A model generated the notes under the pieces. It made no database searches, had not been told where the DNA came from, and saw only the letters and a list, made by a program, of their open reading frames with translations. Shown one piece after another: positions 437-57,200 of a stretch of 64,000 nt of DNA. The number at the start of each line of letters is the position of its first letter. Position 1 is the first letter of the stretch. The position numbers and the translations under genes are program-made. Source of the DNA: Chrysoperla carnea (lineage: Eukaryota; Arthropoda; Insecta; Neuroptera; Chrysopidae); assembly GCF_905475395.1 (NCBI RefSeq), contig NC_058338.1:94845435-94909434 (forward strand), read 5' to 3'.

Positions 437-3400
437 CTGTACAGAGCCATGTCTATCTGCGGGTGTTAAATTGCCGAGTGTATTTTGTTTTGGTATATCC
501 GTCCAGGCTGAAACACCTTTATTACCTCCACTTGTATACTATAAAAAGCATTTTCAAAAAAGAAAATTCATAACATTAAACGTTAATCCAAAAAAAAAAT
601 AAAAAAATAAAATAAAAATCGTAGCCAAAAAAATTATGTTATTAGGACACACAAGAAAATGCTACAAAACTATATTCTGAAAATGGAGGGGGATTTGTTA
701 TGTTAGTTTACAAAAAAAAATATTACACTACATCAAATACCGGGTGGTCCCCTTAGTGACGGATTTATAAATAAAATAATGTAACAAGTGTTGGGGGGAG
801 GAGTTAAGTGTATTCATTTACAACTCAAGAGTTGTTCGTAATTTTTAAAAGACCGTATTTGAAATCGATGAAAATAGGTCCGTGATAAGGACGTACATTA
901 ATGAGACGAAAAAATGTTACAAACAAAAGTTGTTTATTTTTTATAAGGAACATTTTTTACCCTTAACTTTTTTCTATCTATAACGATTTACAAGATGGGT
1001 AATACAAACCCAAAACCCAATTGAATTATGATGCTCATTAACGACCTCAACTTTGCTTTTACGCAAAAATCCATCATGAGCTTTGTCATATTCAAATCGC
1101 CAATCTTTTATATGGGAACTTTGTTGGGGTTCATTTTACGTCCCCTATGTAAATCTGACGCGATCAATTTACTTTTTTTTTTTTAATTTTACACCTACAC
1201 CGCCCAAACCGTTAAAGTCTTTAATAAACAATTTATAGGTCTATACCTCATACAGGTTAAAGGAAAGTCTAAGTTCAATGGAATAAGTGATATTTTCTTC
1301 TTAAACTCATTTAAGCTACAAAATCTTATAGGTTTTGATGACGTTCGAATAACTACACATTTAGCATCGCTCAGTTCAATCGAAAAAGTGAGAGAGACAG
1401 ATATTTACTGCAAATTCAAAGTCTCTTTTAAGGCCGTCATAAACATTCTTTAAATTAACTCAAAATCCGTCACTGGACGAAAGTCGAAAGTACTAAATGC
1501 ACCTCGGTACTGATTTAGTTAAATATTACTTTAAAAGATATTTCGATTTACTACAGGTTGAAACAACAAACATAAAATACTAAAGATTATTTTTTTTTTT
1601 TAACATTTCTTGGTTAAAAGCAAAAAAAAAAAAAAAAAAAAACAACAAAATTGATTAGAATCAATTTGGAAAACTGCTTTTCCAAAAATAAATAAATAAA
1701 TAAAAAATTGAAGTGTAAAATGAGAAACACATACCTTTCGATCTCTATTTAGCTCTTTATTTGGTGAGACAACAATTTCATGACCCGTTTGTAGTGAACC
1801 AACAGGTGTTGACTAAAAAAATAGATCATTTTATAAATTTAGTGTTTTGTTTTCTTTTCAGGTGCCAATTTTTTTTAATGGTTACAAACGTTCAATATTT
1901 TTTTTAGTAAAATCTAATTGCCCTGGAGCTCGTGACAGTAAAATTGCACTTACACTGATTTTGAAATTACGCATATGAATCAATACTATTTAACGATAGG
2001 TACATCATTGTAAATAGGAATATATGGACTAGATAGGTGTGCAGGGTTTATCCTAGCAGAAATATTTTTTGGTAGAATTTTTTTATTTTTAACTGGTATG
2101 ACAGATATTTTGGTCATATTTTGAGCTGTCACATCGAGATATTTCGAAAGTAGAACTCAAAACGAACAAATTAAATACAAAAAAAAAAGTAATTTCGCGA
2201 TAAGGGTAAAATATTTTTGGCTTTATATACTAAAAATTGGTGTGACAGACCTTTCTGCCACGATAAAAGCTGTCACACCAAATTTACTTGAAAATAGACA
2301 AAATTTGCAATAAATTGGTCTCTTATAAATTAATTTCCATGAAAATGCAAAATACTTGTAATTATTAAATATATAAAAACAAACGCTTATTAATAAATTA
2401 TTGAAAACAAACTCGTTGTGCCCGATCAAGGATGTATGAGCACGGCAGTGAGGACACTTTGGAAAAATAGACTTTTTCAATTTTGATGATGAATTATGTT
2501 ATAACTTGACTATATAAGACGAAAAGTAAGAATAAAATTTTTCGATATCTGAAGTAATTTTCAAAATATCGAACATTGAAAATTTTGTTTAATTATTTAG
2601 CTTCTAATATTTCGAAAAATAAGGTAGATATCGAAAAATTGTATTTTTATTTTTCGTCTACATTCATGAAGTTATAACAAAAATTCATCATCAAAGTTGA
2701 AAATGAAGTACAAATAATTTCAAACCTAAATTTAAAATTGCCTTGGTGCTCGTACTACCTTAAGTATATTTCGAAAAATCAAGACTTTCCGAGTAATTGG
2801 TGATTGAAATTCGGAGTATTTAATGCCAAAAAAACTGAAAAATGTTTTTTGAAAAAAGTATATCGTAAACTTTTTAAAGTACTATAAAAGACCTTGAAAA
2901 TGAAAAAGTTTCAATTCATTTCACGAAAATTAACGGAGCTATAATGAAAAAAAAGTTTATCGTACCTTTTTTTATTTTTTATTCAGCACAAAAACTGATG
3001 AATTAACCACGGGAACTAAAATTAACGCTTGTTGCTTTCCAATTTACTTTATTTAAGCACTGACAACATGTATAAAAATTTTTAGCAGTTTCGGACATAT
3101 ATTTTTTAAAATTTTTGAAACAAAATATGTCTTTTTGGCGATGTTGATGGAAATATTATTCTTAATTGACGTTATCTCAAGAGAGATTGGCGAGATAGGT
3201 GTTTCTCAAGGTTGAAAAATACCCATCTAGAATTCCAATCGGAATTGCCCAACGTTTTTAAAATATCGAATAAAGTCAATTAAGAATAATATTTCCAACA
3301 ACTTCTGTTTAAAACTTATTTTGAATTTTGAATATTCATAAAGATGTATCAAAATTAAGTTTGAGAAAGCTGATGTAGAAACTGTTTTTTTTTTTTTTTT

Positions 3401-9400: not shown

Positions 9401-12400
9401 TAATGAAATTTTTCTTAGATGATTATTATTTCAGAAAGATAAAAATGTTCATATATCGTGTAAATATAAATATATCGCTTATGATGACTATCGGACATAT
9501 CGACCATAATAATAAGACCTTTAAAGTCATTAAAACCAATTTTGAGAGTAATTATAAATTAAAATAATTGAATGCTTACCTCAATAGGTGTTGCTCGTTT
9601 GGTATCACCAATTTTTTGATATCGTTCTTTTAACGTATCCGCTTTTAAACCTTGCCATGGCAATGAACCACGCAAGAAATACATAAACATGTGTCCTAAT
9701 GCTTCTAGATCATCACGCCGTGATTGTTCTTTACCTAAATGTGTGTTTATACTCATGTAACGCGCTGTACCTGTTAGTGATTTGTGTTCTCGATATGGTA
9801 TATGTTTATTTGTCTCTAAATCAATATACTCTTTTGCTAAACCAAAATCTGTAACAAAAAACAATCAAATATTACAGAGTGTTCCAGTCAAATAACATAA
9901 ATATATGTATAATTATATATAAAAGGCGTATCGCAAATCCGTCACCAAGAGGCCAGACGTCTCCGGGTAAGAAATGCTATTTTGAGCAGATTAAACCATA
10001 AGATTCTATCAAGGTCGCAGATGCAAATAACATATATGGAGGTTTTATCGTCCTCCATACAGGGCCTAAAAGTGAGATCTTCAGAGATCCCCATTTTATG
10101 AAGGTTGCCACCACTCTTCTCAACAATCCTCTAGTGAGTTTTAACTTGTCGTGCCATTCCTCGATTCGGTAAATACGGAGCATCTTGTTGTAGGAAAGAC
10201 AGGCTTGTGTGAAAGGAGCGTTTGAGACGAGCACTTTCATACCAATAAATCCGATATTTCATGCCCTTTAACGCCAAAGTGTCCAGGTACCCAGATCAGC
10301 CTGCCTGTTTTATTCAGAGTCAGGCGATTCAGTTTTTCGAAGCATTGGAAGCACTATCTTTGATTTGAATCTTGACGGAAGGACCCGAAGTGCGGCTTGA
10401 CTATCTAAGAAGATGCTGATATGTGAGTAATCGGAAAAAATGGATCAAAAATTTTATAGACCAGGAGAATTGTTGTAATTACGAGTTGGTTGGGTTCTGA
10501 AGTTTTTAGCCCTTGCGATCAAAAATGGGACACTATTATACAAATTTGTTTCGGTCTATTTTTTCCTAAATCCAATATGTGCCTCATTTTAATATTTCGC
10601 GATTGAAAAACTGTCGCATATTAACCAAAAGGAATTCCCCTCCCGTACTTAAACCCATCCGTATGAAGGTATGATCCGGGAGGTAAATGTATGTATACCA
10701 AATCTTAAGGAAAAATCATTTCAGCGGAAGTGAATGAATATAATTATTTCTCAGAGCTATTTTAGGGTAAGCCATCTAACTTGCAAACATAAACATCTAT
10801 GGATTATAAAATAAAATAATTTTCTTACCAATAATATGAATGATTTTATCTCGTTTTGTAGTATTTCTTCCAATAAGAAAATTTTCAGGTTTTACATCTC
10901 GATATATAAGATGACGACTATGTACATATTCTATACGATGCAACTAAAAAAATAAAACAACCGTTTATTATGTTAATTTACTAATCAAAAATAAATTGTC
11001 AAGTATCTGAAAATAAAACGAACTTTGTTTTAAAGCAAGGGTCTGATAAGTAGAAAGTTATCTGCCCGCACCGGATAAGCAATCAATCAGCCAGCCAGAC
11101 CGACGTGGCATCTATGGTACTTTAGTCGACGCAGACAGATTACTTTCTTATTTTTATTACATGCTTGATACTCAGGCATAGAAATCTGATAGGAGATAAG
11201 AAAAAGCCAGCAAAGTATTTTCAATTTAAAGAAAATTGCTTGAACTTGTTTTTTTACAAGTAAAGGGACTTCACATGTTTACGAAATTAGCGAAAATTGA
11301 TTGAGTGTATAGTAGGCCTGAAGGTAAAAACAAATAATCTTTTAGACGCGTCGAGTCAAAAATTTCTACAAGATTACAACCCTTTACAATCAATATTTCG
11401 AATCCATAGCCTTTTCGTATCGATTTATATTTTTCCCGAAATTATAGACATTTTTTTTAGTTAAAATAGTTAATTTTCATGAGATGAATTAGAAGTTGAG
11501 TAAATCTTTCTAGGCAGTAGATTAAACAGCTGATATATAATTTGGGCAAATCGAGTGTTTAAAAACTTTTTCCAGAGCCAAGATTTTTCTAAAACAAGTG
11601 TATTTTCGGCTTATTTATAAACTGATGAGCGAAATGCGTACTCACGCTTACTAAATAGAATAGGCCTTTGTCCTAAAAATTTTTTATTGTCTCAATTGAC
11701 GTTCGTTATCGAGCCAAAACATCGTGTGAAATCAATTTTTGAATAAAATCAAAAACTACGAAAATATGAAGGATTTAATTGTATAAATAGAAAAAGAGGA
11801 AAGTAGCACGTGTTGACGTCATAACTTGACTGCCATAGATAATTTATTACATGTCAATAATATTATTTCGAGGAAAATGTAGATACAATTATTTAGTTAC
11901 TTATATCTTTCATCTTTATCAATCGATTTAAATTTTTAGTTAGGATCTTGTCATCTCTTCTCGCATATTTTCAAATTTTAACATAAGATTTTGGTCACAG
12001 CCACCCGAATATCGGCCAAGTGGGAATCAGATTATGAACTCTGCTCATGATCGATATAGTGCATTTCTAAAAATGAGATGTTTACAAAATATATGACGCC
12101 CTGACCAAGATTTTGAACAGTGTATATAGTTCCTCGAGGGCAAAGTCTTGGGTCGAACATTAGTAAATTAATAAACCACCAAAAAGGAAGAGGGCTCGAA
12201 ACTTTGAATATTCGCACCCGGCGAATATCTTTTTTCCAATACAAGCATTCATGTGCCAAAAAGAAACAAATATATTGTCAAAAATGTGACGTGTCAGTAC
12301 ATCGTCTATGATGTCAAGTATTTCGCGGCGTTCCGAATCAAGCAGGATTCATTTTTTTCTCTTATTTTTATTAATGAATTGGATATAATATCATCAGCCT

Positions 12401-15400
12401 ATCGATTTCAATAGACCGTGAAAATGTGACGTCACAAGTCTATTAGAGTTACGAGCAGGCCCATATTGCTCAAAGGTTTTATTTGATTAATTCTCATAAT
12501 TCAGCGCCTCTGAAACTCGGTTGTGACGATGAAATTATTATCGTGGGAATTTAATACAAAGTCATTTAAAAAATAAAATACTTTGCTATCTTTAAATTCT
12601 CGATTTGATCTGTGGGGGGTTCAATTTTATTTTCAGATACCTATTATAAATGAATCAAGACTTTTTTTTGTTGATAAAATGGACGACGCGATTTCTAAGT
12701 AAACCTAAACTCTACAATCTAGAATGTAAATGATGCTCAATTTATTAATTATCTGGTATCTCAATAAAATACTTACAAGTTGAATTGCTATCAATAAAAC
12801 AGTTTTAAGTGAAAAACGTCTGGCGCATAGATCAAATAAATCCTCAAGACTAGGTCCAAGTAATTCCATAACCAAGGCATTATATTTTCCACATGGTCCA
12901 AAATAATGTACTTCTGGTATTCCTTCTGTTTAATTTTTTTTTTTTAGGGTAGCAACCAGAAGGGGGAAAATGTGGAAAATGATGTGAATTTTTTTTTTAA
13001 GACACGGGAAAAGGGGATAACAGTCAAAAGGATAGGAAGAGAAACAAAATATATTAGTATTTTGATTATGAAATTAAAAAGAATTCTACTTGTTTTTTGA
13101 AGTGTCATTATTGGAGCCAGATTTCGAAGTATTTTGAAAAAAATAAAACAAAACTTGTTCGTAGAATCAAATCGACATTCGAATAGGGAAGATGCATGCA
13201 ATGGCAGTTTGAAATTATTGTATTACAGAAGGAAGGTCTAAAATACAAAATCAGAAGTCTTCGAAATTCTATTTCTCAAAATAAATCTGCATGAATTTCT
13301 TTCTGATGAAATATCCCGTTATATTCCATTAAATTTGAGTCAGGAAATTCAATTTCGGAAAAATTGAAATGACTTGTTGATTGGAAGCAATTCCAGAGAA
13401 CACAAATGTATCAATTTTGTTCGGTTTCGCTTTGCTGGTGCTCATACCAGCCTTTTCTTTGACGGTCGAGCCCTTGAGGCTTTAATATTTCATTCAATTA
13501 TAGTCTATGGTTTATTCGCAAAACTTATTAATTATTAATTCGAGGCCAACCGAACCTGGGATTATTGTATCAACATGCTTCGAAATATTTTAAATTCAGG
13601 AATGGCAGCGATGATCTTATCTTGGTAACTCACAGGGAATCAGGTATAAAATTTTTTGACTCAAAACTGTCACCTGTCAGGAGCATTTCTATTAATGTTA
13701 ATTATTCTGTTGCAACCAACGAATGGCTACGATAAGCCAATCTTGATTACTGGGATTCTTGGGCAATTTTGCAGCAAGCCAAACTTTGTATATGATTATA
13801 CAAAGGTCAATTGACTGTAAAGCAAGGTCATTTGACTGCACTCGCCTGAAACTAGAATATGAAAGCGCTTAGAAGAAGGCAGTTTCAGTTTTAAAATGAA
13901 ATCAAACCTCGTACGGAAATTTTTTTTAGCCCATTTTCAAGAAAAATTAACAAACTTTTGAGAGGTTTTAGCAAATTTGTTGTAAAATAATTTTTAAAAT
14001 TTTGGTACGTCTCTAAAATTTATGTAACAGGAATAACATTTCTCACTCTTTCAACTCTCCCTACAAAGCGAAATGCACTTACGCTTATGTACAAAGCGGC
14101 AATTTTTGAACAATACATTCCAAAACTAGAACTAGAGCACAGTTGAGAAGAGTGGTGGAACTTTTAACAAGTCACTGTCGGTTGAACTACCGACCCTTCT
14201 CTGATGATCCCATTTTTAGGGCTTGAACGGGGAAAAAAATGAAACCTCCATACCTGTTTGCACCTGCAGAAATCTACAGGGCGTCAGATTTAGAATGTTT
14301 AGGTCCAAAGCCTTGAATTCATTAATTCTAAGATAAATTTCGGCGGAGAAGTTGTGTCCTTTTTGCGTGACGTCTGACCTCCACAGATCCTATATCTTCA
14401 TCTGCTTAAAATAGCATCTTTTACCCGGAGACGTCCCGCCTTCGGGCAACAGGTTGTTCTCAAGAAGGACACAGAGGGTACTCTTATATAATTATTCTTT
14501 TACAGAAAGGCAATCGAAATAGTGCTTTTTAAATTTCCTGACTATTCTTGATTAAGAGAATAATTCTATGAGCCTTTTTTACTCATGGTTATCCTGACAC
14601 AATTTTCAAGTCGGATTTCCTTGTTTCTCAGCAAAAAAATTCGAGTTTAATGATCATGCAAATTTATTTTGAGAGTGTTTAAACTGATTCGATTCAAAGA
14701 ATTTATTATTTTAGACATCAAAAGCATTTTTTTTTTTTTAAAAAGCTCATGCATCTTCCCTATTTTAAATTTTAATAAACTGAGCATTGCAAATAAAAAA
14801 ATATTTGTAATCAAAATCACAAAGCTTGGATTCAATCACGCATCTTAAATTGTAGTAAAAAAAATTGAAAGAAATAAATAAATATGATGAGATAAAAAAT
14901 ATTCGAACTCACTAATTGATTTGCAATCATTAAAACAGTTTTTAATTTAAAATGTCGATTACATGTTACAAATAAATCTTCAAGACTGGCTCCTAATAAT
15001 TCCAAAACCATTGCATTCCAACGCCCAGCACATGTACCCAAATAATATACGCGGGGTATACCTTCAATAACTCCATCTATACATATCAATATTTTTCGTT
15101 CAATAAAAAGGTCTAGTAGTCTGGGAGCCCGCTGTCGTTTTTGGTCCCTAATCGAGCAAAAGAAAATAGACCACTTGGCAACTGGTATTTTGCAACACAC
15201 CGTCGAAAGTTTGTCGATATTTTCAACACTAGGTCCCTCAATAAAGCAATTAGTTAATATTGTAAGCAATCTCAAACTGAATCATATTACTCCAGATATT
15301 TTTCGATATCTAGAGTAATTTTCTAAATATCGAAAATTGAAAATTTTGTTTAATTATTTAGCTTTCGATATTTCGGAAATCAAGGCAAATATCGAAAAAT

Positions 15401-18188
15401 TTTATTCTTATTTTTCGCCCATATTCATTCAAGTTATAACAAAATTCATCATCAAAGTTGAAAATAAGGTACAAATTTCAACCACAAGTTTAAACTTGCC
15501 TTGGCGCTTGTACTACCTTAACTTTGGTATAATTTCTTTATGAGACAAACATTAATCTATTGCCCAACAACCACTTCAAATCAGATTCTCTCAATGGCGG
15601 CGGTGTGTTGCAGACTACAAGACAAATGTTTCCATGAGGTCCATTCTCTATTGCTTATTAGTGATCAAAAACGACAGCGGGCTCCCTGACTAAACGGTTT
15701 CAAGTACTATTTGACAGTTATTACAGAACGACTTAATATGGCAACGCATAAAATTTATGGGAATTGGCTCCCAGCTAAAGTGTCTGAATTTTTTTGTTAT
15801 AGTTGTAAACATTCTGTATATATTTACCCGACTGCACTAGAAGGAGGGTTGTATGTAACCTAATTGACACGGCGTGATGGATTTTAGCTTGAGATATGTG
15901 ATTAGATTCGTCTTAATTGTAAGATCGACACTGTTTATATCAAAATTATAAAAATGATGTATGTATGCATACCTCTGTGTCATAAAAAAGTTGTATACCA
16001 AATTTCGATCTGAGGCCTAATTTCCGAGATAATTAACCAAATCAATTAATAAATTTAACCAATGAAGGAACGCATGGAAATGGAATAATGTCTTTATTGT
16101 GACTGGGTGGGGGTTTAATAAAAATTCAAAAAAGATAGATAGATAATATGTTAATATGATAATTAAATGCAACGATAAAGACATCTTATATTTCTAAGTG
16201 CTCTGTCATTAGATAGTTTTTAATAGTTTTTGCTAATTATCTCGGAAATTAGGCCTCAGATCGAAATTTGGTAAATCACTTTTTCGACCGTCTTTATAAA
16301 TAGATTATTTAAGAAGTTGAGTTCTGCTTGTTCCTTTGTGGCGCTCTAGAGATCAAACGTATAGGCCGATTTTAATGATTCTTACGTCAATCGATCTTGC
16401 GAGTGTCACTGAAGACATGCCAGTAATTAAATTATCGTCTTTATAAATAGATTATTTAGGAAGTCAAGAGTTCTGTTTGTTCCTTTGTGGCGCTCTAGAG
16501 ATCAAACGTATAGGCCGATTTTAATGATTCTTACGCAATCGATCTTACGAGTGTCACTGAAGACATGCCAGTAATTAAATTATGTTAAGCGGGGTATCAA
16601 TAAATAGGTATTTGAAAATTCCAACAGAAAAGTGTAAAATGAAAAAATAAATTTAAAGAATCAAAAAAACCCGTCTGCTACTGAAATAAAAAACAAGTTC
16701 GGTAGTTTACATAGCGAAATGGTATGCAGTTTGTAAAATGTGTAATAACTCCAAACCTGTATATTTATTTTCAACATATCAAAAATTCAGACAATTTAGT
16801 TGCGAGCCATTTCCTATAATGGTTTGTGCGTCGTAGATAATAGAGGAAAAACTTTTAGGAACGACTATTTCAATCGTTTTGAAATGACTGTCAAATGCAA
16901 CCGCCTGAACCTTGACCTCTATAATGAATGAATGCTTTTAATTAGAGGCTATTTTTTGATCTTTGATAAAGTGTAGGCTTCATCAGAGATTCCAAAATAA
17001 AAACAAAAACTAAAAAACAAAAGAAATCATAAATAGGTAAAATAAAAGTGTTATACTAACCATGTGTTCCCAATAATTTATAAAATCTATATTCTAGATG
17101 TAATTGTGGAGCCTTTGATTTCATAGGCTCCATTTTAATTGCTACATGTTCATTATTATACAAATTTTTTCCTAAAAAAGAAAATTGACAAACAAATTTG
17201 ATTAGTAATCTTTCAAAAAAATTTTTAATTTTTTATACATACGATGTCTTTTTTTCCCACGGGTTTATTTTTTAGGTACTTCTTAGAAAAAATCATGAAC
17301 TTTTTTTTGTTTTAGAATTTGATAAAACTCAGTTGATACGACAAATTTAGCCCAATAGATTCAAAAAACGAGTTAAATTTACGATTGTGCGAGTAATTTT
17401 TGAAAAAAACCACTTCTTGAATCAATTTTTGACGTTATCTCGAAAATTAATCGTCTGATTGTTAAATGAACCCATCTTTTGAATTTTTTGGGTCAAAATT
17501 ACTTTGCATACCTACTGATTTTAATCGAAATCGGAAATCGAAAATTTGTCTCGATTTTTTGCAAATTTCTTAAGGGGGCCCTTTAGAAAAAATCGAAAAA
17601 ATCATTACCATTTTTTTGTTTCGGAATTTGATAAAACTCACGTTTATAAAACAACATTACTCCAAAAAATTCAAAAATCGAGTTATTTGACGATTGGGCG
17701 GGTAATTTTTGAAAAAAACGCATTCTCCAATCAATTTTTGACGTAATTTCGCCTTAAAATTAGTCTAACTAGGCTAATTACTTAGCAAATATCTAAAGTC
17801 CACTGACTGTTTTTTCATAATTCCAATATTTATTTACAATAACAATAATTATATTTTCAGGTTTTTTTTAGAAATGAAAGAAATTCTTCCAGAAAAAAAG
17901 AGCATCGAATGTTACAAGGATTATTCAAAATGAAAAAAAAATAAACATACCTAAACGTAATTCACCAAAATTTCCACAACCAATTTTTTTACCAACACGA
18001 AAATTAGGGCCGACCATTAGGACGCCCGAACTTGAGCTAACAGAATGACGTGATGAGTGCATGTTTGTGCCAGAGATGAGCCCGTGACGGGCAGTGGCAC
18101 CTGTAGCTATTGCTCCGGATACACCGTGTGTCAAACGTGATATTTTTTTTGCGTCCGCTAGCTCGCGGGTTGGCCCAGCTTTTTGCAT
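437..18188 (-). CDS. gish: Casein kinase 1 gamma (gilgamesh), 8 exons, 3' end outside window
   Basis: Membrane-associated Ser/Thr kinase of the CK1 gamma group, known to phosphorylate Wnt co-receptors (LRP6/Arrow). Exons in transcript order: 18188-17951, 17171-17061, 15061-14913 or 12925-12777, 10943-10829, 9848-9580, 8125-7955, 1812-1735, 538-437. With one alternative exon used, they total 1233 nt (411 codons) in one frame. Visible motifs are the glycine loop GCGNFGEL (about residues 70-77), VAIK with catalytic K92, RDVKPEN with D182, and DFG at 205-207, the last split over a junction. The CK1 signatures [13 protein letters not shown] and [12 protein letters not shown] are present, followed by the gamma-type tail [11 protein letters not shown] and [11 protein letters not shown]. 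The start is the first ATG after an in-frame TAA. The last exon or exons, with the expected cysteine-rich palmitoylated C-terminus, lie left of base 437. Introns are loaded with repeats. Family assignment is very secure and single splice sites are inferred. Confidence 0.95.
845..1010. repeat. Dispersed repeat, inverted relative to 34590-34760
   Basis: The block around 850-960 (ATAGGTCCGTGATAAGGACG, then AACAAAAGTTGTTTATTTTT and TAAGGAACATTTTTTACC) is the reverse complement of a block at about 34660-34745 in CEP120 intron 1. It is a repeat family I cannot name, lying in a gish intron. Confidence 0.6.
2080..2282. repeat. Two related small hairpins
   Basis: At 2238-2280 GGTGTGACAG is followed about 20 nt later by CTGTCACACC, a hairpin. 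A diverged copy (GGTATGACAG, then GCTGTCACATC) lies at about 2095-2140. They abut the TTAA element that starts at 2430. Confidence 0.6.
2430..2759. mobile_element. TTAA-type miniature element, copy 1
   Basis: It begins GGATGTATGAGCACGGCAGT and ends GGTGCTCGTACTACC, roughly inverted. The right end is followed by TTAA; the left flank is TCAA, a decayed target duplication. The interior is AT-rich with repeated TTTTCGATAT motifs and no coding capacity. TTAA target sites are typical of the piggyBac superfamily, so I infer a non-autonomous piggyBac-like element. Confidence 0.65.
3572..3646 (-). other. gish: Possible extra in-frame cassette exon of gish
   Basis: Between the exons at 8125-7955 and 1812-1735 there is a 75-nt stop-free stretch that starts after an AG (GAAAAG|CCTGCT) and ends at a good donor (GATAAG|gtacgc). 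In phase 0 it would add 25 residues ([10 protein letters not shown], then [12 protein letters not shown]) without shifting the frame. CK1 gamma tails are known to vary by splicing in this region. The upstream pyrimidine tract is poor and I do not recognise the peptide, so this is only a candidate. Confidence 0.3.
4051..4071. repeat. (AAT)n microsatellite
   Basis: A run of about seven AAT/ATA units in the gish intron, next to a LINE 3' fragment. The same A/T-rich trinucleotide tail (AATAATAAT) follows other LINE fragments, for example near 8262 and 42710, which suggests that it derives from the LINE 3' tail. Confidence 0.8.
4075..4440 (-). mobile_element. LINE 3'-end fragment (RNase H-bearing non-LTR family)
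   Basis: On the minus strand, frames carry [20 protein letters not shown] and then GDETSIHEE, the Cys/His tail found after the RNase H domain in I/R1/LOA-group non-LTR retrotransposons. The copy is frameshifted and 5'-truncated, and is followed by an AAT-repeat tail. Confidence 0.75.
4750..6115. repeat. Long imperfect palindrome (foldback element)
   Basis: The left arm (about 4750-5400) is mirrored by the right arm (about 5420-6115). Matching blocks are ACCAAAATTTGG, ATCAAATTAAGTAATTTGG, GTTCTTAAAAATAAA and CCTTATTTCAG on the left, with their complements on the right. The centre holds a tighter hairpin around CTCTTGGGGGCTTAGAGGAC. No gene is seen inside. Confidence 0.75.
6790..7390. repeat. 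Palindrome (foldback element) in gish intron
   Basis: The arms share CATAGACCACAAAGCC, GATGCTTCTATATGT, CACCCCTTGGTATCTCACCC and CGAATAAGATAAATGTCGTA on the left, with reverse complements on the right (for example GGTGAGATACCAAGGAGTGT). Arms are about 290 bp with a short centre. Confidence 0.8.
8265..8640 (-). mobile_element. LINE 3'-end fragment
   Basis: The minus strand reads [18 protein letters not shown] followed by [16 protein letters not shown], the same Cys/His tail region as at 4075-4440, with the cysteines lost. It is decayed and 5'-truncated. Confidence 0.7.
9935..10440 (-). mobile_element. LINE 3'-end fragment with RNase H part
   Basis: The minus strand contains [15 protein letters not shown], the conserved C-terminal RNase H block, followed by a decayed EEWW tail region. 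Several frameshifts and stops are present. Confidence 0.75.
12777..12925 (-). CDS. gish: gish alternative kinase exon C2 (VHYFGPC type)
   Basis: A second version of the same kinase segment: [33 protein letters not shown], and ending [10 protein letters not shown] before the donor CTT|gtaagt. It is closer to the vertebrate CSNK1G form ([24 protein letters not shown]) than C1 is. The acceptor is a CAGAAG tandem (NAGNAG), giving exon ends at 12925 or 12922, and both keep frame. The acceptor lacks a pyrimidine tract and is preceded by an A-run on the transcript, so it looks weak. The lack of stops and the strong conservation argue for a functional exon. Confidence 0.88.
14130..14490 (+). mobile_element. 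LINE 3'-end fragment, plus strand
   Basis: The plus strand reads [17 protein letters not shown] and continues into the same 3' region as the other copies, but with opposite orientation. It ends near a TTATATAATTATT tail. Confidence 0.7.
14913..15061 (-). CDS. gish: gish alternative kinase exon C1 (VYYLGTC type)
   Basis: This exon codes for the kinase segment after beta-3/alpha-C, starting [17 protein letters not shown], through [12 protein letters not shown], and ending [10 protein letters not shown]. The donor is TTA|gtgagt. It resembles the Drosophila gish version ([17 protein letters not shown]). The acceptor used here is TTGAAG|GTATACC. An alternative acceptor 15 nt upstream (TATAG|ATGGAG, exon end 15076) keeps frame and adds a DGVIEG stretch, so the exact 5' edge is uncertain. 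It has the same entry and exit phase as C2, so either one can join exons B and D, while joining both would duplicate a structural segment of the kinase. Confidence 0.88.
15123..15686. repeat. Foldback palindrome next to gish exon C1, containing a TTAA-element remnant
   Basis: The left arm GGGAGCCCGCTGTCGTTTTT, then GCAACACACCG, is mirrored on the right by GGTGTGTTGCA, then AAAAACGACAGCGGGCTCCC. Between the arms lies a left-truncated copy of the TTAA miniature element (about 15285-15517) ending GGCGCTTGTACTACCTTAA. The palindrome starts about 50-60 nt upstream of the C1 acceptor on the transcript. Confidence 0.8.
15998..16275. repeat. Inverted repeat with near-identical arms
   Basis: The left arm ACCAAATTTCGATCTGAGGC, then CTAATTTCCGAGATAATTA, is matched in reverse complement at about 16230-16272. 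The arms are roughly 45 bp and almost perfect, with a spacer of about 190 bp. Confidence 0.8.
16289..16583. repeat. 147-bp tandem duplication
   Basis: Two adjacent copies (16289-16435 and 16436-16583) begin CGTCTTTATAAATAGATTAT and end GCCAGTAATTAAATTAT. They differ at only a few positions, so the duplication is recent. Confidence 0.85.
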
Positions 18189-32325: not shown

Positions 32326-35300
32326 ATGGATGAATTAATTGGTCCAAATGTGAAAATTGTCTTGGAGGTTATTGAAGGTAATTTTTTTAGACTCGATAAA
32401 GAGTTAATAGGCTTAATAATCGATGTAGAGATAAAAAGCGCAGATAGAAATTTTTGGTAACCCGTTTACAATCTTCAATTTTACGGTGACATTAATTTTT
32501 TAATAACAGTCCCACTCGATTAACCTGATAATATTTTGAAATACGTTAAAGGCTACTTTCGAATCAACGAAAACGAAATATTTAATAGAAAAATATACCT
32601 GAATACCTTATTGTATTGAAACAAATTGCAACGAAATCGTTGAAACGGACACACAAATTGCTGATTAAACCGGAGCCAAACCGGCTCATCAGGTTTATTT
32701 TTCTCATTTCTTAAAAACGATTATTTTTATGAAGAATCTTAAAATTTAAAAAGACATTGACTAAGATAATATATAAAGACTAGGTATCCCAATCATTCAT
32801 ATGGTTGCGCCGCCAAGAGTGTGCCAAGCATACTATCTGACAGTTAAAGTACTTCCATACTAACTTCCATAATAATTAATATATTTTTTAATAATTAATT
32901 AGTGACTAAAAAAATTAACATTAGATTGATAAACGTATATTTTAATATTCGAATATATATAATTATAACAATAATATATTCGAATATCTGCGTCAAAAAA
33001 TTAAAGAGATTCATTGTTTAGTTGATGAAACACAATATATCATCGAAATACCTGATAATTGTGAATTAATGGAAATTACTGTAATATCTTTGTGGTTGGG
33101 CAGTATTTGTTTTGTCCTCTGATTGCGAAGTATGTGAAAGAGCAATTAATTCTCCAGTACCTTTATCAAATGCAAGCTCTGACTGGACAGATGTAGTAAA
33201 TCGTGATCACTTAAAGCATCCTAGTAAGCAGTATATCAACTTCTGAAAAGTCGAAAAAGTTTTCACTAACTATGGAAAATCAGTATTGCATCTACAGAAT
33301 GTTCATGAGCTTTTAACAAGAATTATTCAGGAATGCTGTTAAACATTCACTATCCTGAATGCCACAAAATTCGCGAGAAATTTTTGGAGAAATTCATTTT
33401 CTTACGGCTTCACATTCTTGCTAAAGAACGGTGCAACCAAAGAACCAAATTTTTGTTGTTCTTAGTTCTCGAAGTGCATATATGCGTACGTTACTAATTT
33501 ATTTATTTAAGCGTTACTAATTTATTTATTCTCAGTATTAAGAATACTTTAGATATCCATAAAATATAATAAAATATTTATTATTAATATGGGAGTAATG
33601 AGAGTTAGCATGAAAGTACTTTAGTTGACAGTTAATATGTCAAACGCTTGACACATTTCCCATCATGCATTGCATGATTAGAATGCCCCTCTTGTATTTT
33701 GTCCTAACATTGACGATTTACAGGGTGAGTAGTTGAAAAATAAATTTCGATTTTTGCCCCAATTTCCTAGATCAATTTTTTGTATTATATAAATACGTAT
33801 TTCGACTACCAAGTAGTCATCATCAGTATAAATTAGCTAATCGTAATTACTCTTATTGTGTATGTTACTCGTTGCTATTTGGTGGCAGACTGCACGAAAT
33901 TAGCATCTGAGAAGTGATACGCCAAATAAGTATTTCGATTTTTGATATAAGTTCGAATTCACTAAAATATTAGACTCAATAAGAAAAACGGAAATCTATT
34001 GACTTATTGCGCATGTGTCGTAGATGGTTCATCGAAATTCAAAATACTAAAATGTTTAATGATAAATTTATTTTATAAATAGGATGACTTAAATCAATAA
34101 GACTCGATTCTGAAAGAAGTTGAGTTTGCAAAATAAGATTACGAGATCTGCTCACTGATTCAGTACTTTCAGGAATCCAAAAACCCATAATGCTAAATTG
34201 AAATAATATTAAATAGCATTAGTTCCTGTCATCACAGTTTCGTATTGTGAGCAGTGGGCTAGCTGCTCATAAAATATTCTCATTGTCCCCCCTAGCCATA
34301 CGTTTATGAATAGAAATTACTCGAGCAATTGCTAAATAATTTTTTTATTTTTTGAGTCTAAATAGACCTTTTTCATGCAAAATTGAAATGCTTTTTGTTA
34401 ATTTTTATACCATGTATATATGAAGTATATTATACCATGTATATATGAAGTATACATAGTATATTAAGTTTAGTCCCAAGTTTGTAACGCTTAAAAATAA
34501 TGATGCTAGGAAAAAAATTTTGTCACAGGTGTTCACTAAATCACCTAATTAGTCCATTTCCGGTTGTCCGTCCGTCCGTCCGTCTGTGGACACGATAACT
34601 CAAAAAAGAAAAAAGATATCGAGCTGAAATTTTTACAGCGTACTCAGGACGTAAACACCGACCGTTAGAGATAGAACAAAAGTTTAAATGTAAAAAATGT
34701 TCCTTATCAAAAATTAAACAACTTTTGTTTGAAATATTTTTTCGTAAACATCACTGTTTACCCGTGAGGGCGCCAATTAGGCGGAAATTTTATAATATGT
34801 ACTATACTTGATTATCAGTTATGTATGTGTCACATGTTTGTATGTGTAATGTGATAAAGAAATCAAAACTGACTATACATGGTATTTCAACAATTAACTT
34901 AGTCAATTGTTTGTTTTCACTTGTTTTTTATGAAAATATAGGTCGAGTAGAACCTGTAACTCGAAAATTACGCGTTTAAAAAAAATAAATGTGGTCGTGA
35001 ATTCTTGTTTGTTGCATAACACGTTTATTATTAATTTTACACGAAAAATGGTAATTTTCCAAGTTATGTGAAATTAAATTTCATACATTTTTTATCTTTA
35101 TCAATTTTTTCTTAAGATCGATATTTTTCGATTTAGACCTAAAATGAGATGGTCATGAATTTTTATTTTTTGCATTATTCGTTTATTTTTAAGTTTACGT
35201 GAAAACTGCTTATCACCGTAGTTTTTAGGAATTAAATTTCCTACAATTTTAGTCCTCATCAATTTATTCCTAGGATCGATATTTTTTTTCGGACCAACTG

Positions 35301-38300
35301 TCAGAATAATTTAAATTTTTAATTCTTTTCAAAAATGAAAGAAATAAATTTGCATTTTTCATTGTAAAAGTTATTTCAGTTACATCCTCCTTTCTCTTTA
35401 AAATAAGCGTGCATCAGAAAAATATGAACTTTACAAAAAAAAAGGCGGCATCAAAGTTATTGCAATCTCAATTTTCAAATTATTAGTTTGTCATCGTTTA
35501 TACTAAAAAAATCAATGATAAAGAACATATCAGAATAATCGATCCTATGCAAAAATTGATGAGGACCAAAATTGTAAGAAATTTAAATCCAAATAACTTC
35601 GGATTTCCCCACCTTTTTTCAGATCTAAATAAAAAAAATATCGATCCTAAGAAAAAATTGATGAGAATCAAAATTATAAGAAATTTAATTCCTAACAACT
35701 TTAGTAATTGCTATTTTTAGCGTAAAATTAAAAATAAACGAGCTATGCAACAAACAAGAATTCATGATCACCTTTTTTCGGGTCTAAATAAAAAAATATC
35801 GATCCTAGTAAAAAATTGATATAACCAAAATTGTACGAAATTTAATTTCAAATAACTTGGAAAATTACCATTTTTTGTGTAAAATTGATAATAAACGAGC
35901 TATGCAACAAAGAAGAATTTACGACCACCTTTTTTTAGGTCTAAATCGAAAAATATCGATCCTAGGAAAAACTGATACGAACCAAAATTGTAGAAAAATT
36001 TAATTTCTAATAACCTGGAAGATAACCATTTTTCGTGTAAAATTAATAATAAACGAGTTATGCAACAAACAAGAATTCACGACAGCCTTTTTTTAGGTCT
36101 AAATCGAAAAATAGAGATCCTAGGAAAAACTAATATGAACCAAAATTGTAGGAAATTTAATTTCACATAACTTTGGTTCTGACCATTTTTCGTGTAAAAT
36201 TGAAAATAAACGAGTTATTCATTAAACAAAAACGCAAACTATGCCAAAACAATATTTTAAAATATATAATTCTTGCTTTCCGGATCGTTTTCGCCAATTT
36301 GAATTTTAATGATTTTCATTGTTCGTTTTTTCGGTCATTTGGCTCAAAAAAAATCGGGGGAAAAAATTAGCCCATTAATCAAGACATTTATTTTCATTTA
36401 AAAAAATGAAAAAAAAAAGTGTGAAAAAGGTCTATTGCTATATTGGATCAAAACATGCATTTGGAACTTTTGGCACCCCCAAACGGCTCATCCTAGACAC
36501 TAATTAAACTCGACTTCAGCTCAATTTGAGGAGGCTATACTGAAGAAGTTTCAAGCCATAAAAAGACGAAAAAATTGGTTACCCCTTGAGAATTATCCAA
36601 ATTGCTATAATCTGCCCCCATTTATCCGTAGTAAACAATTCTACATATCGAATTTCCGCTAATTGCTAAGATATCGGCCAAAATTTTGTAGAAAGAGCGA
36701 TTTCTCGATTCGATTTCAGATAGTTTCTTTGAAAATATTTATCTACTAGCCAAATGAAGTGAACTCTCGTTACATTTGGGTTTTTTTTCAGACAACCGAT
36801 TAAATCGATTTTGATGATCCCAATCTTGTGATCCCGTTAGTGACGGATTAACCATTAGTAACCATTAGGGGTCCCCGGGAAATGTCAAGACAGGAAAAGT
36901 CAAATTTGTACGAGTAGGGCGCCACAAGGCGGCCAAGGTGATATATTAGGACTAAAAAGTTGATTCTGCTCTGATTTGCATTACCTAGGCGCCCCAGCAT
37001 AGGTTCTCCATAATTATTGAAATGAAACATTTTTGTAATTATTTTAGGTCAGCAATTTGGATTTTTACAGAATCCTGTGTATGTTTTAGCCAGTCTAAAT
37101 GGCTTTATATTAGAATCAAATTCAGTTGGACCATGTGATAACCCCGCATTTGGTACAAATTTAATATGGCAAGCGGATAAAAAAGGACTTCGATTGTAAA
37201 TCTAATGTTATATATTTTGCATAATTTTTGGTCGATTTTTAAAAATTGTTAACTTTTTATTTTTGGATTGTAGAATGCGTACGGGTAATATTCCATTAAA
37301 AGTTGAATGTTTTACAACGAATCAACAAAATTGTAAAGAACGAATTGGATATTTGTTGCTGAATTTAAGAGCTATACAAATATTACCTTCCGGCAAGGCA
37401 TCACAAGTAAGTTTGCGTAGATGGGGGTGGGTGTTCTTACTGAGTCGGTGAAACAATACTTATCTAAAACAGGAGAAAACATGAAAAAAATATCATTACA
37501 ATATTTTCTCTTCAATTTCTATACATAACTTGGCTAATTTTTTAAAATTTATATGTCGAGATTCTAATATCCTATTTTTTCCTAAGCGGTACATATTTAG
37601 ATCCTGAGTCTATTTTATGTTAGCAGCCAAAACGATAAGCTTCAAAATGAGGGATAAATCATGGATTTTGATAAAGAAATAAAGAAGATATCGCTTGGAC
37701 AGGAAAAAACAGGCTAGAGAAATAACATATATAAAAATAATAATACGTAATAGTGGTACAACAAATGAGTGTCTAGCACCTCTACGAAGGGGTCTTGTGT
37801 GTCCTTCTTGAGAACAACCTGGCACCCGAAGGCGAGACGTTTCCGGGTTTGAGATGCTATTTTAAGCAAATGAAGCTATAGCAATCTGTCGAGGCCAGAT
37901 GCTACGCAGAAAGTTTACAGGTTCTCCGCTGGAATCTCTCCCAGGATTGATGGATGCAAGGTTTCTTACTCAAACATTAAAAGTTTGACACCCTGGAGGT
38001 TTCTGCAGGTGCAAATAAAATGTATGGAGGTTTCATCGTCCTCCATACAGGCTCTATAAGTGGGATAATCTAAGATCCCAATGTTATGAAAGTAATAGTT
38101 CAATCGACAGTATCCTGTCAAGGTCTCATCACCCTTCTCAACTATGCTCTAGTGAATTTCATGCGAGGTCTATCTGTGTGTAGCTCTATCTGTATCTAGC
38201 TCTATCTATCTGTGTTTATACACAGTTTGGTCTGTCGCATGCCATGCGTCTCAGTAATCAAGATGAATTTATCGTAGCCTTTCGTTGATTTGGTAAATTG

Positions 38301-41300
38301 CATTAAAATCTTGTGGCAGCCATTTTACACGAATTTTTCTCAAATATCTCACGGACTATTAGGCTTGAATCTGCATTTAAAAATTTTAATTCTTTTATTC
38401 AATGCGAGTTTAAGCTCAAAAATAAAAGTTAAATGTGCTTATTTTTAGATAAAACAAAGTTGGAATAAATTAATGGGTGTTAAAAATGAGGCAAAAGCAC
38501 ATCGACCAGAAATATTATTATCATTTTACGTTGAAGATGATGATAAACTTGAGGCTGTAAGTTTTAATTTTTTAACAACTTGAAACATCGATTATTTTGG
38601 ATGAGTTTTTATCTTTTTAATTTTAGGAGGAACCTTGCTGTGAGAATATAACAAATATTGTTCCACCATCTGCAATAAATGCAGTCTCACCACAACGTGG
38701 TGTACCAACAATTGTACCACGTTTATGTTCGGAGGAAGGTCTTATACAAATCGGTCCAGAAGATACTTGTACAGATATATTTTTGTTAAGTATTTTAATT
38801 GGGACTGCTGCTAATTTAGATATGGTAAGCGCATTTACAGAATATTTCAAAAGTTTGAATGAAAATGGTCTTTATAGAAAAATAAACCACCCTTATTGTA
38901 TTTATTAGATTTCGTAGAAACAATTAAAACAATTTTGAGTAAAACTTTTTATTCCGTTTTTGCCTAAACTTTACGGTTTGCGAAAAATGTTACTTTTTTA
39001 TCAATAACAACTTTCTAATTTAAAGTTTTCATCTATCGATTACCAATTATGGAGTTGATTTAGCTTAAAAATCTAGGTAAAGTTTAATGTCTGCGCAAGA
39101 TGTGCGCTTACACATCCAACATTTTTCGTTGAAGCATTTTATCGATAAAAGTTTTTTTACGAGTTTCAAGCATATGTCAACTTATAAAAGATACGCTGTA
39201 AATGATCCGATAGCTTGTACTTTCTAGTTTTTGAATCAATATCTCAAACATTTTTATCATCCTTAATACTTTTTGTGTAGAGCTGAAACGCTGAGAAAAT
39301 TTATTTATTAATTTAGTATGAATTTAAAAAGCGTGCACGGGGTGCATAAGTATTTATATACAGTACAGTAACTTTTACGGAACTTTTTGTATTTAGAGAC
39401 TTTTGGTCGTTCATTTTTGTTGATAAATTAATTTTTTAGATTTATTGTTTCGTTGTAGCAATATTGATTTGACAGTGAATAACTCAGCCAAGAAAGCTTG
39501 TACGAGGTTAAATGTAGCGAGATTTAAAGAGAAATGAGCAAGCTTTCGACCTTTTTTATTAGATTTATAAAGAACTTTTAGAACCCCGTGTACCCGTTCA
39601 CAGTTTATAAATAATTAGAAAAATTTTTCTCACAATTTGAAACTTTTTTTTAACTTTTGTTACAAAAATCTGAATGAGTTCAGGTATGGTCATTTCCGTA
39701 TGGTCATTTTTTGAAAAAATATGACAGTTTAATGTGAAAAGTGTCTATTTTGTTTTGTCAGCGAATAACTCGTTCTTAGAAGCTCGTATAAAGATCAATA
39801 TAATCGGCAATCGCATTTTATGCAGAAATAAACAAACAGTCAATTTCTTTATAAATACTTATGCACTCCATGCAAACTCTAAAAATTCATATCAAATTAA
39901 TAAATTTTCTAAACGTTTTAGGCCTGCGCATAAATTATTTAAGGATGATAAAAATGTTTGAGATATTTATTCAAAAACTAGAAAGTACAAGCTGATATAT
40001 TTCATACAGATTCAATCATTTTTCGCCGAGAAAAACCTGTTAACATAATTTGAAGAAATTTAGAAATCAGTCACTTTTTTAAGGTATTCAGTTTGCAGGA
40101 GCAAATAATTATTCTCACGGTGCATGACTCGACTACATCGACTCGATCACATAAAATATAAACTTGAAAAAGATGAATAAAAAACTATACTTATAAATAA
40201 TATTTTTAGCTCCTCACAGATTCCCAACAACAGTCTGGCGATGCAACAGAATCAACAGGAACTTATTCATTTTGGTATTCAATATTTGGACATTTCATAC
40301 AAACAAAACCATTTAATAAAAATTTATCTGAACCGTGTACACTAAATGAGAAAATTGTTTTACGTTTACGTAGTTCATTACGTGTATTAAAAATCTATTT
40401 TACTGAAGTCTCTTTAATGTTTTTGAAATTAATATGTGGCACGAATGAAATTGGTTATGCAAATATGGAATTAAAAAATTTAGTACCAACAGAAAAATTA
40501 ACAGAATTTTTTACACTTTATGCGATTAATAATACCGTTACACAGAATCAACGATGTTATTTACATACAACACATGGAGGTCGTACACCAACGGACATGC
40601 ATGGACGCAAACCATTTATTAATATGGAAGTGAAATTAAAATATGTTCAACCACCAAAGGTATTTGATTACTTAATTCACTTTGAAGAGTTTCAGAAATA
40701 GATAATTATTTCGAAGAAATGGAAATGCACTTTTTTTAAGATCAAGGTGGCTGGCGCCCGAAGTTTCTTTGCTTGAGCTTCTCTTAGGTTCGGTGTCTAG
40801 AATCCAAACTTTCTGTACTTGACTTTTTTTAGGCTATTATAGATATAAATGAGAAGAATTTGCATAGTCTTCCGTATTTGCCCTAAATCTGAAATCGTCA
40901 GACACCCCCAATGTGATACAAATGCGTAATTAAATCGATAATACGAAATGGAAGAGTCGCTATCTTTCTCAACTGTGTCCTAGGCTGAGAATTTTCATAT
41001 TGAAAAAAACCCGTTCGGTTATCCAACGCAATAATTAGGATACAATTTTTTTATTTAGGATACATACAATGGTGATACAATGCGTGACGTGACATTACGT
41101 AGCACAAGTTTAACTGGTTTGGAACCGAAAGCAGTTAGCAGTTGTTATCAGGAGCCTACACCACGGTAAAATTTAAGTAACAATATTTGCAAGAAAGTTA
41201 ATCTTATTCAGGAATATTACATATTAGTATAACTTTAAGAAAAGTTTTAAACAAAAGTTATTGTAGATCGTTTACTCCAAATATTCAAGATGGCGACCAC

Positions 41301-54200: not shown

Positions 54201-57200
54201 GGTTGAGTTTGTCGCCTATAGAGGAGTTGATTGGGTTCTGAAGTTTTTAGCGCTTGCGTTCAAAATGGGACGCAAGGTGATGAAATGTTACGTAAATCTC
54301 GATCCCATTCTTCACGGAAAGGAACAATAACCCTCAGTTTCCGATCAAAGAATAATCTTAGAATAAGTAAAAGGTACGCTCCTTTATATTATCCTCAATT
54401 CAATTTTAAAAATAAAGATTTACCTGAAAACACTTGAAGCACCTTGGGCCGCTGTTATATCCAATGGTAAATTCTGTAAACTACGTAATTTTTTCACTAA
54501 ATTATCATACGATTGTATTATCCTTAAGGATAAATCATCATCATCCTCCTGTGAATCCTGTACATCTAATTGCATAAATTCATCACAAATATGTTGAATT
54601 CTCTCCGATTTAATAAATAATTTCGACTCTAATAAATAATTAATAATTTTCGTACAAATATCACGACGTGTTAACTTATTCGAATCACTTGAATCCCAAA
54701 TAATACATTCCATTATTGAGCCATCATTAAAACGACGTAATTCCGTTTTATTTTTACCCCAAAATTCACGAAATTCAATTGCTTCCGGTAAATTTGCAAT
54801 AGGTCCTTTTTCAATTTTATTAAATGCTTTTTCTTCGTTTAGATTGAAGCCAATTATAATCGAATTTATTTCATCAATTGTTGGTACGGATTCATTTATA
54901 TCCCATTCGGGTGGATCATTTAATTTTGGACATAATTGAGTTAAACGATCTGAAAGACCTTTCTTTAAAACGTTTGTGATTTGTTTTAACCATAATGGAT
55001 GCTTGAAGGTCATATAATCTAAGCGTTCATGACGCTCGATTAATGTATCGTAAAATTTAATATTTTTTATATTTACTCTAAAACAAAAATTTGAAAATTT
55101 TTTTTACAGTTAATAAGTTTTTGAAAGTAGCCCATAGACGTTTAATAATATCCCAAGGTTGCAATTCTCAAACGATACTCCCGGATGAATATGAATGCTT
55201 GTATCTGACAGCCTTGAACCATTTCTAGCAAACTCGTCGGTTTCACAATTTCCTGGATGTCCCTGTACCTCGGTACCCATGCCAGATTTAGATTCATTTG
55301 TTCCGCCAGCTCATTTAAACATATATATGGTCTAAATACAATCGTAGGAGTACCGAAGATCTTATATCACTTCAAAGGACCACAATAAAATTGTTGCAGC
55401 TACTACACTGGCTAGGCGGTAGGCACGCTGAACGCCTAGCGGCGGCAGTGTGTCGCAACTATTGCAGGAGCTGTCACAATGGGGAGGAGGAAGAAACAAT
55501 GCCTAACCTTCTCTGTCTTTCCATGAGAAGATAAATTCAATTGAGCCAGTTTTTCTTTGACGACCTATCCGACTTAAATCCGCTAACGTAGAAGTATTCT
55601 TGCTGTTCTTAAACAGCTCCTAATGGTTTATCTAGTAGTGACCGGGGATGAACCAATTCTTTTTCGTTATCACAACGGACCCTTTGGTCTAAGTGTGTCT
55701 CACCCCTAATTATTGAATATCAAATCAAAATATTGAACGTCTATAGGCTACTTTAAAAAGTTCATTTTATTTTTAATTTGATGTATATATTAACTTACTT
55801 TACAATTTGATCATATTGTTGATGAAAAAGCATTTTTTCGGTGAACAAATGTCGAAAATTATTAACATTAAAAGTATCATCCAAATATTGCACAGCTTTT
55901 TTACACTCTGTACAAACTTTTAAATAAATATGTGGATTTAAAAACGCGGCTAAATTATAGAAACCAGTAACGTCAACAAAAACAACTGGAAAATGATCAT
56001 GGAATTCATTCATATCCGGTTGATTCTCTTTTTTAATATTCGATAGTGTAATTCCTTGACCCCGTTCTGTCCAATGACTATCTCCTATTTACGGGAACAC
56101 AAATTATTTTACATTCTAAGTGTAAAAGTTTTATTTTTCTTAAATATACTGACCCGCAAATAAAAAGTGGCGCAGATATATCTCGGCGAAAAATGATTGG
56201 ATCTGAATCGAAATAAATCACATCCGATAGTTGCACTTTCTAGTTTTTGAATCAATTTCTCAAACATTTTTATCATCCTCAAATATTTTATGCGCAGGGC
56301 TGAAACGCTGAGAAAATTTATTTATTAATTTGGTATGAATTTTAAATGTTTGCACGGGGTGCATAATTATTTATACAATAAATTGACTATGTTCAACCGA
56401 AAGCTTGTTTATTTCTCTTCAAAACGCGTTTATTTTGCTCTTTGTAAGAACTTCTAAGGCCGAGTTTTTCATCGACAAAACAAAATAAAACTTTTTACTT
56501 TAAACTGCCGTATCTGCTCGAATATAGAACTTTTAGAACTTAGAGAGTTTGGTTTTTTTTGTTAAAAAATTGATTTTTTAGATTTACTGTTTTTTTGTAG
56601 CAATTTTGATATGACAATGAATAACTTAATCAAAAAAGCTCGTACGAGGTGGAATAGTAGCGAGTTTTAAAAATAAATGAACAAGCTTCCGAGTATTTTT
56701 ATTGGATTTATAAAAAAAAAAAAAAAAAAAAAAAAGTATTATGATCCCGTGATAAGGAATGCAAAGTGATAAGGAATGATATATATTCTTTAGCTTTTGT
56801 TTCAAAATTTTGAAACTATTTTCGAAATTATTCAACTTTAAAAAAGAAAGTATTATGACCCCGTGATAAGGAATGCAAAGTGATAAGGAATGATATATAT
56901 TCTTTAGCTTTTGTTTCAAAATTTTGAAACTATTTTCGAAATTATTCAACTTTTGAATAAGTTTAAGTTTATTTCTGCAAAGCCATTATTTGAGGAGACA
57001 GCAGTTTGATGTGAAAAGTGTCTATTTTGCTTTGTCGGAGAATTAATAGATCTTAAAAGCTGGAATAAAGATCAATATAAGATCTTTTTAAAGAGAAATA
57101 AACAAGCTTTCGATTGTACATACTTAATTTCTTGCATAAATACTTATGCACTCCATGCAAACTTTTAAAATTCATATCAAATTTAATAAATTTTCTCAAA

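Follow-up and report, generated by a model that had tools for sequence, protein, structure and literature searches.

Results

A CK1 gamma gene with two homologous neighbouring exons

The window analysed here, a stretch of 64,000 nt from Chrysoperla carnea, carries on its minus strand a kinase gene whose coding exons we rebuilt from the raw sequence, with GT donors and AG acceptors. The best solved relative of the encoded kinase was Drosophila Gilgamesh isoform I (PDB 4nt4; 553.6 bits), followed by human CK1 gamma 1-3 (517-524 bits), with CK1 delta at 356 bits or less. Judged by this CK1 kinase domain, which is nearest to CK1 gamma, the gene is CK1 gamma (gilgamesh, gish). Its exons in the window are as follows.

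17951..18188, minus strand: first visible coding exon, with the glycine-rich loop; begins at the first in-frame Met, which need not be the true 5' end
17061..17171, minus strand: constitutive exon B, phase 1 at its end (..LLGTH + G)
14913..15076, minus strand: alternative exon C1, 164 nt, of the type seen in fly Gilgamesh isoform I, with a gtgagt donor and a weak acceptor
12777..12925, minus strand: alternative exon C2, 149 nt, of the type seen in vertebrate CK1 gamma, with a gtaagt donor and a long AG-free zone at its acceptor
10829..10943, minus strand: constitutive exon D, with the catalytic loop; joined to C1 or C2
9580..9848, minus strand: constitutive exon E, with DFG and the activation segment
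7955..8125, minus strand: constitutive exon F
1735..1812, minus strand: constitutive exon G
437..538, minus strand: exon H, the last in the window; the gene continues past the window start

CK1 gamma has a C-terminal cysteine-rich tail for lipid attachment, and here that end falls beyond the window. Neighbouring genes carry a Cep120-type domain (40210-40701, plus strand) and Nrap/NOL6 domains (54420-59206, minus strand). As Mat89Ba, an Nrap relative, presumably lies near gish in Drosophila, the gene neighbourhood may be old. A Pfam scan of seven stretches returned families in three (a Cep120 domain in one, Nrap/NOL6 domains in two) and no family in the remaining four, including the C2 exon alone. 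A viral-contig scan returned one locus, a 13-residue match close to the contig end.

C1 and C2 encode the same stretch of the kinase. Their DNA is 75% identical over 111 nt, and 34 of 50 aligned residues are identical, with one gap in addition. Both exons open in phase 1 and both close on a whole codon, so that in tandem they show what is expected of an exon pair: they are neighbouring, homologous, similar in length and identical in phase. A sequence-only reading of this DNA had described two exons encoding the same stretch with the same phases; both were indeed found on the minus strand with GT and AG sites, and the peptides quoted for them were correct. When the C1 peptide was searched against the window, C2 was matched at an E value of 3e-18. 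The next-best match elsewhere reached only 0.12, and we therefore see no third copy of the exon in the window.

Of the boundaries proposed in that reading, those of C2 (12925-12777) were retained, while the start of C1 at 15061 was not. An acceptor at 15076 adds an N-terminal stretch to C1 to which an insertion of fly Gilgamesh isoform I aligns, and the AG at 15061 comes just 7 nt after another AG. On these two grounds an exon of 149 nt (15061-14913) was set aside for one of 164 nt (15076-14913), the start at 15076 being the more likely from the sequence.

The reading frame favours the use of one exon at a time

The lengths of C1 (164 nt, or 149 nt if it started at 15061) and C2 (149 nt) all leave a remainder of two on division by three, so the frame is shifted when both exons or neither are used. 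In the translated model, inclusion of both led to a stop at position 217 and omission of both to a stop at position 126 (positions counted from 0). In contrast, with C1 alone or C2 alone the frame stayed open through the end of exon H. This agrees with the earlier description of intact donors and no stops, as either exon gives a joined frame without a stop. Breakage of the frame by joining or skipping both exons is common, although not obligatory, in mutually exclusive pairs: a human survey, which cites the fly survey of Hatje and Kollmar, counted 377 clusters (60%) of mutually exclusive exons with lengths not divisible by three (PMC5740500).

Mutually exclusive use, as claimed in the sequence-only reading, is thus supported at the level of gene anatomy, by the same phase, the same protein stretch, frame-shifting lengths and weak acceptors. 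In the mechanism that we propose, exon B would be spliced to either C1 or C2, and whichever exon is chosen would then be spliced to exon D. Products with both exons in or both out have early stops and would be expected to be cleared by nonsense-mediated decay.

The C1 and C2 acceptors are poor in pyrimidines

We compared the splice signals of eight acceptors of the gene. The pyrimidine fraction at positions -5 to -24 was 0.35 for C1 and 0.30 for C2, against 0.60-0.80 for the six other acceptors, so that the alternative exons have the poorest pyrimidine tracts of the eight. C2 also has the longest AG-free zone, 160 nt, with the following motif ahead of a pyrimidine-rich stretch.

13053..13059, minus strand: TACTAAT, candidate branch site for C2, with the branch A at 13054, 129 nt ahead of the exon

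An AG exclusion zone of at least 100 nt whose 5' part holds a branch motif is the layout of a distant branch point, and C2 shows it. In the distant-branch-point exons of tropomyosin, alpha-actinin and OGDH (4a/4b), a long zone free of AG likewise has the branch site and the pyrimidine tract in the part away from the exon (PMC1431707, PMC7969005). Such features are not special to C2, since the AG-free zones of exons E and H, which we take as constitutive, measure 112 and 123 nt, and TACTAAT also occurs ahead of exon B, at -31. The zone of C1 is 36 nt long. A CTRAY motif inside the AG-free zone was absent at five of the eight acceptors, that of C1 among them.

These signals suggest that the weak acceptors of C1 and C2 would both require activation, that C2 is probably spliced from the distant branch site 129 nt upstream, and that a regulator bound to the pyrimidine stretch between this site and C2 would set the choice of exon. 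Exclusion by simple steric hindrance was considered and rejected. Distant-branch-point exons that enforce exclusion have their branch site close to the upstream donor (PMC1431707, PMC7969005), and the steric limit is a distance under about 50 nt (PMC5740500), whereas the C2 candidate lies about 1.86 kb from the C1 donor. Exclusion through incompatible spliceosomes would call for a U12-type donor, and by eye, against the U12 consensus, none was seen among gttagt, gtgagt and gtaagt.

Selection on the pair and the state of C1

Over 50 codons, the pairwise comparison of C1 and C2 gave a dN of 0.27 and a dS of 0.74, a ratio of 0.36. Of the 34 residues identical in both exons, 22 share the same codon, against 16.3 expected from the AT-rich usage of the gene, which hints that dS is not fully saturated or that some conversion has taken place. 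The earlier claim that both exons are under selection rests on the open frames and on a dN/dS of 0.36 that describes the pair and not each exon.

Two elements with parts that recur in the window lie ahead of C1 and in the C1-C2 intron.

15117..15692, unstranded: element with 36-nt terminal inverted repeats (92%) and TA at both ends; ends about 40 nt ahead of the C1 acceptor
13905..14500, unstranded: dispersed repeat lying within the C1-C2 intron; the window has several copies

The inner part of the first (15298-15521) recurs elsewhere in the window. Copies of the second lie at about 8.3-8.8, 37.8-38.2, 53.2-53.5, 4.1-4.4 and 23.3-23.6 kb, with shorter ones elsewhere. In the B-C1 intron, at 16289-16583, a unit of about 148 nt occurs twice in tandem, the copies being 95% alike, and adjoins a foldback with 68-nt arms at 15985-16284.

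The nearness of the terminal-repeat element to its acceptor raises the alternative that C1 is a fading exon, formerly alternative and now seldom or never spliced in. The acceptor itself is low in pyrimidines and has no CTRAY motif, and some conserved positions have changed in C1 alone, for example from P to A, Y to W and D-L to V-T. However, C1 retains 55 open codons, a gtgagt donor and an intact ELLG hinge, the C1-C2 dN/dS is 0.36, and the acceptor of C2 is equally poor in pyrimidines. We consider a fading C1 quite unlikely.

A possible stem in the C1-C2 intron

Mutual exclusion could also be enforced by RNA structure, as proposed in structural models for other insect genes, if a long stem in the C1-C2 intron brought the exons together and hindered their joining. 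A possible stem of this kind has the following arms.

14654..14764, minus strand: possible stem in the C1-C2 intron, 5' arm
13182..13294, minus strand: possible stem in the C1-C2 intron, 3' arm (complementary blocks of 17/17 and 20/21 bases)

The three strongest ungapped pairings of the intron are nested (14764-14748 with 13198-13182, 14674-14654 with 13294-13274, and 14543-14529 with 13352-13338). An equally strong nested pair arose in none of 300 shuffles, the duplex of the arms scored -98.1 against -53.5 +/- 6.1 (0 of 100 shuffles), and neither arm recurs elsewhere in the window. Other measures did not set the stem apart: the best single pairing, at 45, stayed under the top of 47 from 30 shuffles, a looser chain score was matched by 15 of 200 shuffles, and a gapped alignment of the arms scored 109, while 300 shuffles reached up to 112. 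Moreover, the nested-pair score was exceeded by 5 of 32 plain segments of the window, three of which likewise had arms that are single-copy in the window, one of them being a clear terminal-repeat element. For a docking and selector arrangement, in which a single intron site would pair with one or another partner next to each exon, the best pairings between different introns were no better than shuffles. Together, this leaves a stem within the C1-C2 intron as a possible feature in a window with many foldbacks, and enforcement of exclusion by RNA structure as an unlikely mechanism.

A similar stem in the C2-D intron, built on two nested pairings, was rejected, as its chain score was reached in 102 of 200 shuffles and none of the nested pairs passed the further test. 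Elsewhere in the window, strong foldback units lie at 34998-35764 and 56231-57279, with arms that recur at other places.

C1 leans to the fly exon and C2 to vertebrate CK1 gamma

The sequence-only reading had called one exon fly-like and the other vertebrate-like. To score each against the PDB, we extended C1 and C2 with the 29 flanking residues that they share. The C1 query scored 136.3 bits with Gilgamesh isoform I and 111.9 with the best human gamma; the C2 query scored 138.9 bits with human gamma-3 and 123.1 with Gilgamesh. In the shared exons compared, the gene is nearer to the fly (202 of 217 residues identical) than to human gamma-3 (185 of 216), so that the leaning of C2 to the human protein stands as a contrast. 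Raw identity over the exon followed the split for C2 (42/50 with human gamma-3 against 34/50 with fly) and hardly for C1 (39/51 with fly against 37/50 with human gamma-3); fly and human gamma-3 themselves share 38/50.

C1 and C2 differ in 17 alignment columns. In three of these C1 agrees with the fly and C2 with human gamma-3 (L/F, T/P and R/K), and one is a one-residue insertion common to C1 and fly. In three others it is C2 that agrees with the fly, against C1, and at several otherwise conserved positions C1 has private changes. The longer N-terminal insertion is also common to C1 and fly Gilgamesh isoform I. The split is therefore upheld by the PDB scores, three diagnostic residues and two insertions, whereas raw identity separates C1 only weakly.

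In a tree of seven sequences, C1 joined the fly exon with a bootstrap of 73, and C2 stood beside the CK1 delta outgroup and not with human gamma. Among five topologies tested, the three without a pair of C1 and fly had AU p values of 0.028-0.029. As trees lacking this pair are disfavoured, the duplication that gave C1 and C2 probably predates the split of this lineage from Drosophila. The tests did not tell apart the two topologies with the pair, and so do not place the duplication before or after the split of insects and vertebrates.

If the duplication were instead recent and confined to this lineage, C1 would have come to resemble the fly exon by convergence. Under the SH and KH tests the three topologies without the pair had p values of 0.05-0.06, just short of exclusion, the raw identity of C1 to fly is hardly above that to human, and synonymous codons are more alike in C1 and C2 than expected. 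Against this stand the AU values and the three diagnostic residues and two insertions that C1 has in common with fly, and we regard a recent origin as very unlikely. Taken with the frame and the phases, the comparison makes it highly probable that C1 and C2 form a long-standing mutually exclusive pair in the insect CK1 gamma (gish) gene.

The exchanged residues lie on either side of the hinge

The swap had been thought to fall in the hinge. We found the hinge letters ELLG to be identical in C1 and C2, and the differences to lie at the preceding residue and at the one that follows the hinge Gly. The former aligns to Met82 of human CK1 delta, which we take to be the gatekeeper; C1, fly isoform I and human gamma have a Leu there, C2 and delta a Met. 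At the latter position C1 has Ala and fly isoform I has Leu; C2, human gamma and delta all have Pro. The exons also differ in the turn before the gatekeeper strand and in the stretch after the hinge. From their positions, these changes may give the two enzymes different preferences for substrate or inhibitor, or in the nucleotide pocket.

Discussion

Swappable exons are known in other genes, and probably in fruit fly gish as well. Within Ser/Thr kinase domains, exons 6a and 6b of JNK (MAPK8/MAPK9) are mutually exclusive and are said to alter substrate choice; they belong to another kinase family and to another place in the fold than the CK1 gamma pair. Drosophila gish, the CK1 gamma of the fly, presumably also has a C2-type exon. 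The C1-type stretch of the present gene has its match in the solved fly isoform I (PDB 4nt4). In RNA-seq of the fly CNS, gish appears on the list of mutually exclusive exon events, the exons being unnamed in the passages available (PMC11765297, 2025), and 12 isoforms are stated for the gene (PMC3737179). Among the matches listed, and in the portions of these sources available, a link between gish and mutually exclusive exons appeared in PMC11765297 alone. In the excerpt of PMC8055025, gish serves as a splicing control with a shorter isoform in the male body, and gilgamesh has a single mention in an article on CK1 evolution, whose main text as available lacks the words 'mutually exclusive' (PMC9794997).

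The exons of FynB and FynT offer a further parallel, being tandem, homologous, used either/or and reaching the ATP site of the kinase, with isoforms that are unlike in partner binding and tissue (PMC9741552). FYN differs from CK1 gamma in being a tyrosine kinase, in which the exchanged segment comprises the SH2-kinase linker together with the N-terminal portion of the kinase domain.

A fuller model would make insect CK1 gamma an old two-state kinase, in which splicing swaps the gatekeeper and the post-hinge residue, the choice depending on the distant branch site and on a stem in the intron that keeps the two exons together. As a whole this model is unlikely.

CK1 gamma acts at the membrane in Wnt and Hedgehog signalling. 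If spliced as proposed, one insect gene would yield two kinases, possibly unlike in their substrates and in their sensitivity to inhibitors. The C1/C2 pair would then be a small natural experiment, one kinase with a single exon exchanged.
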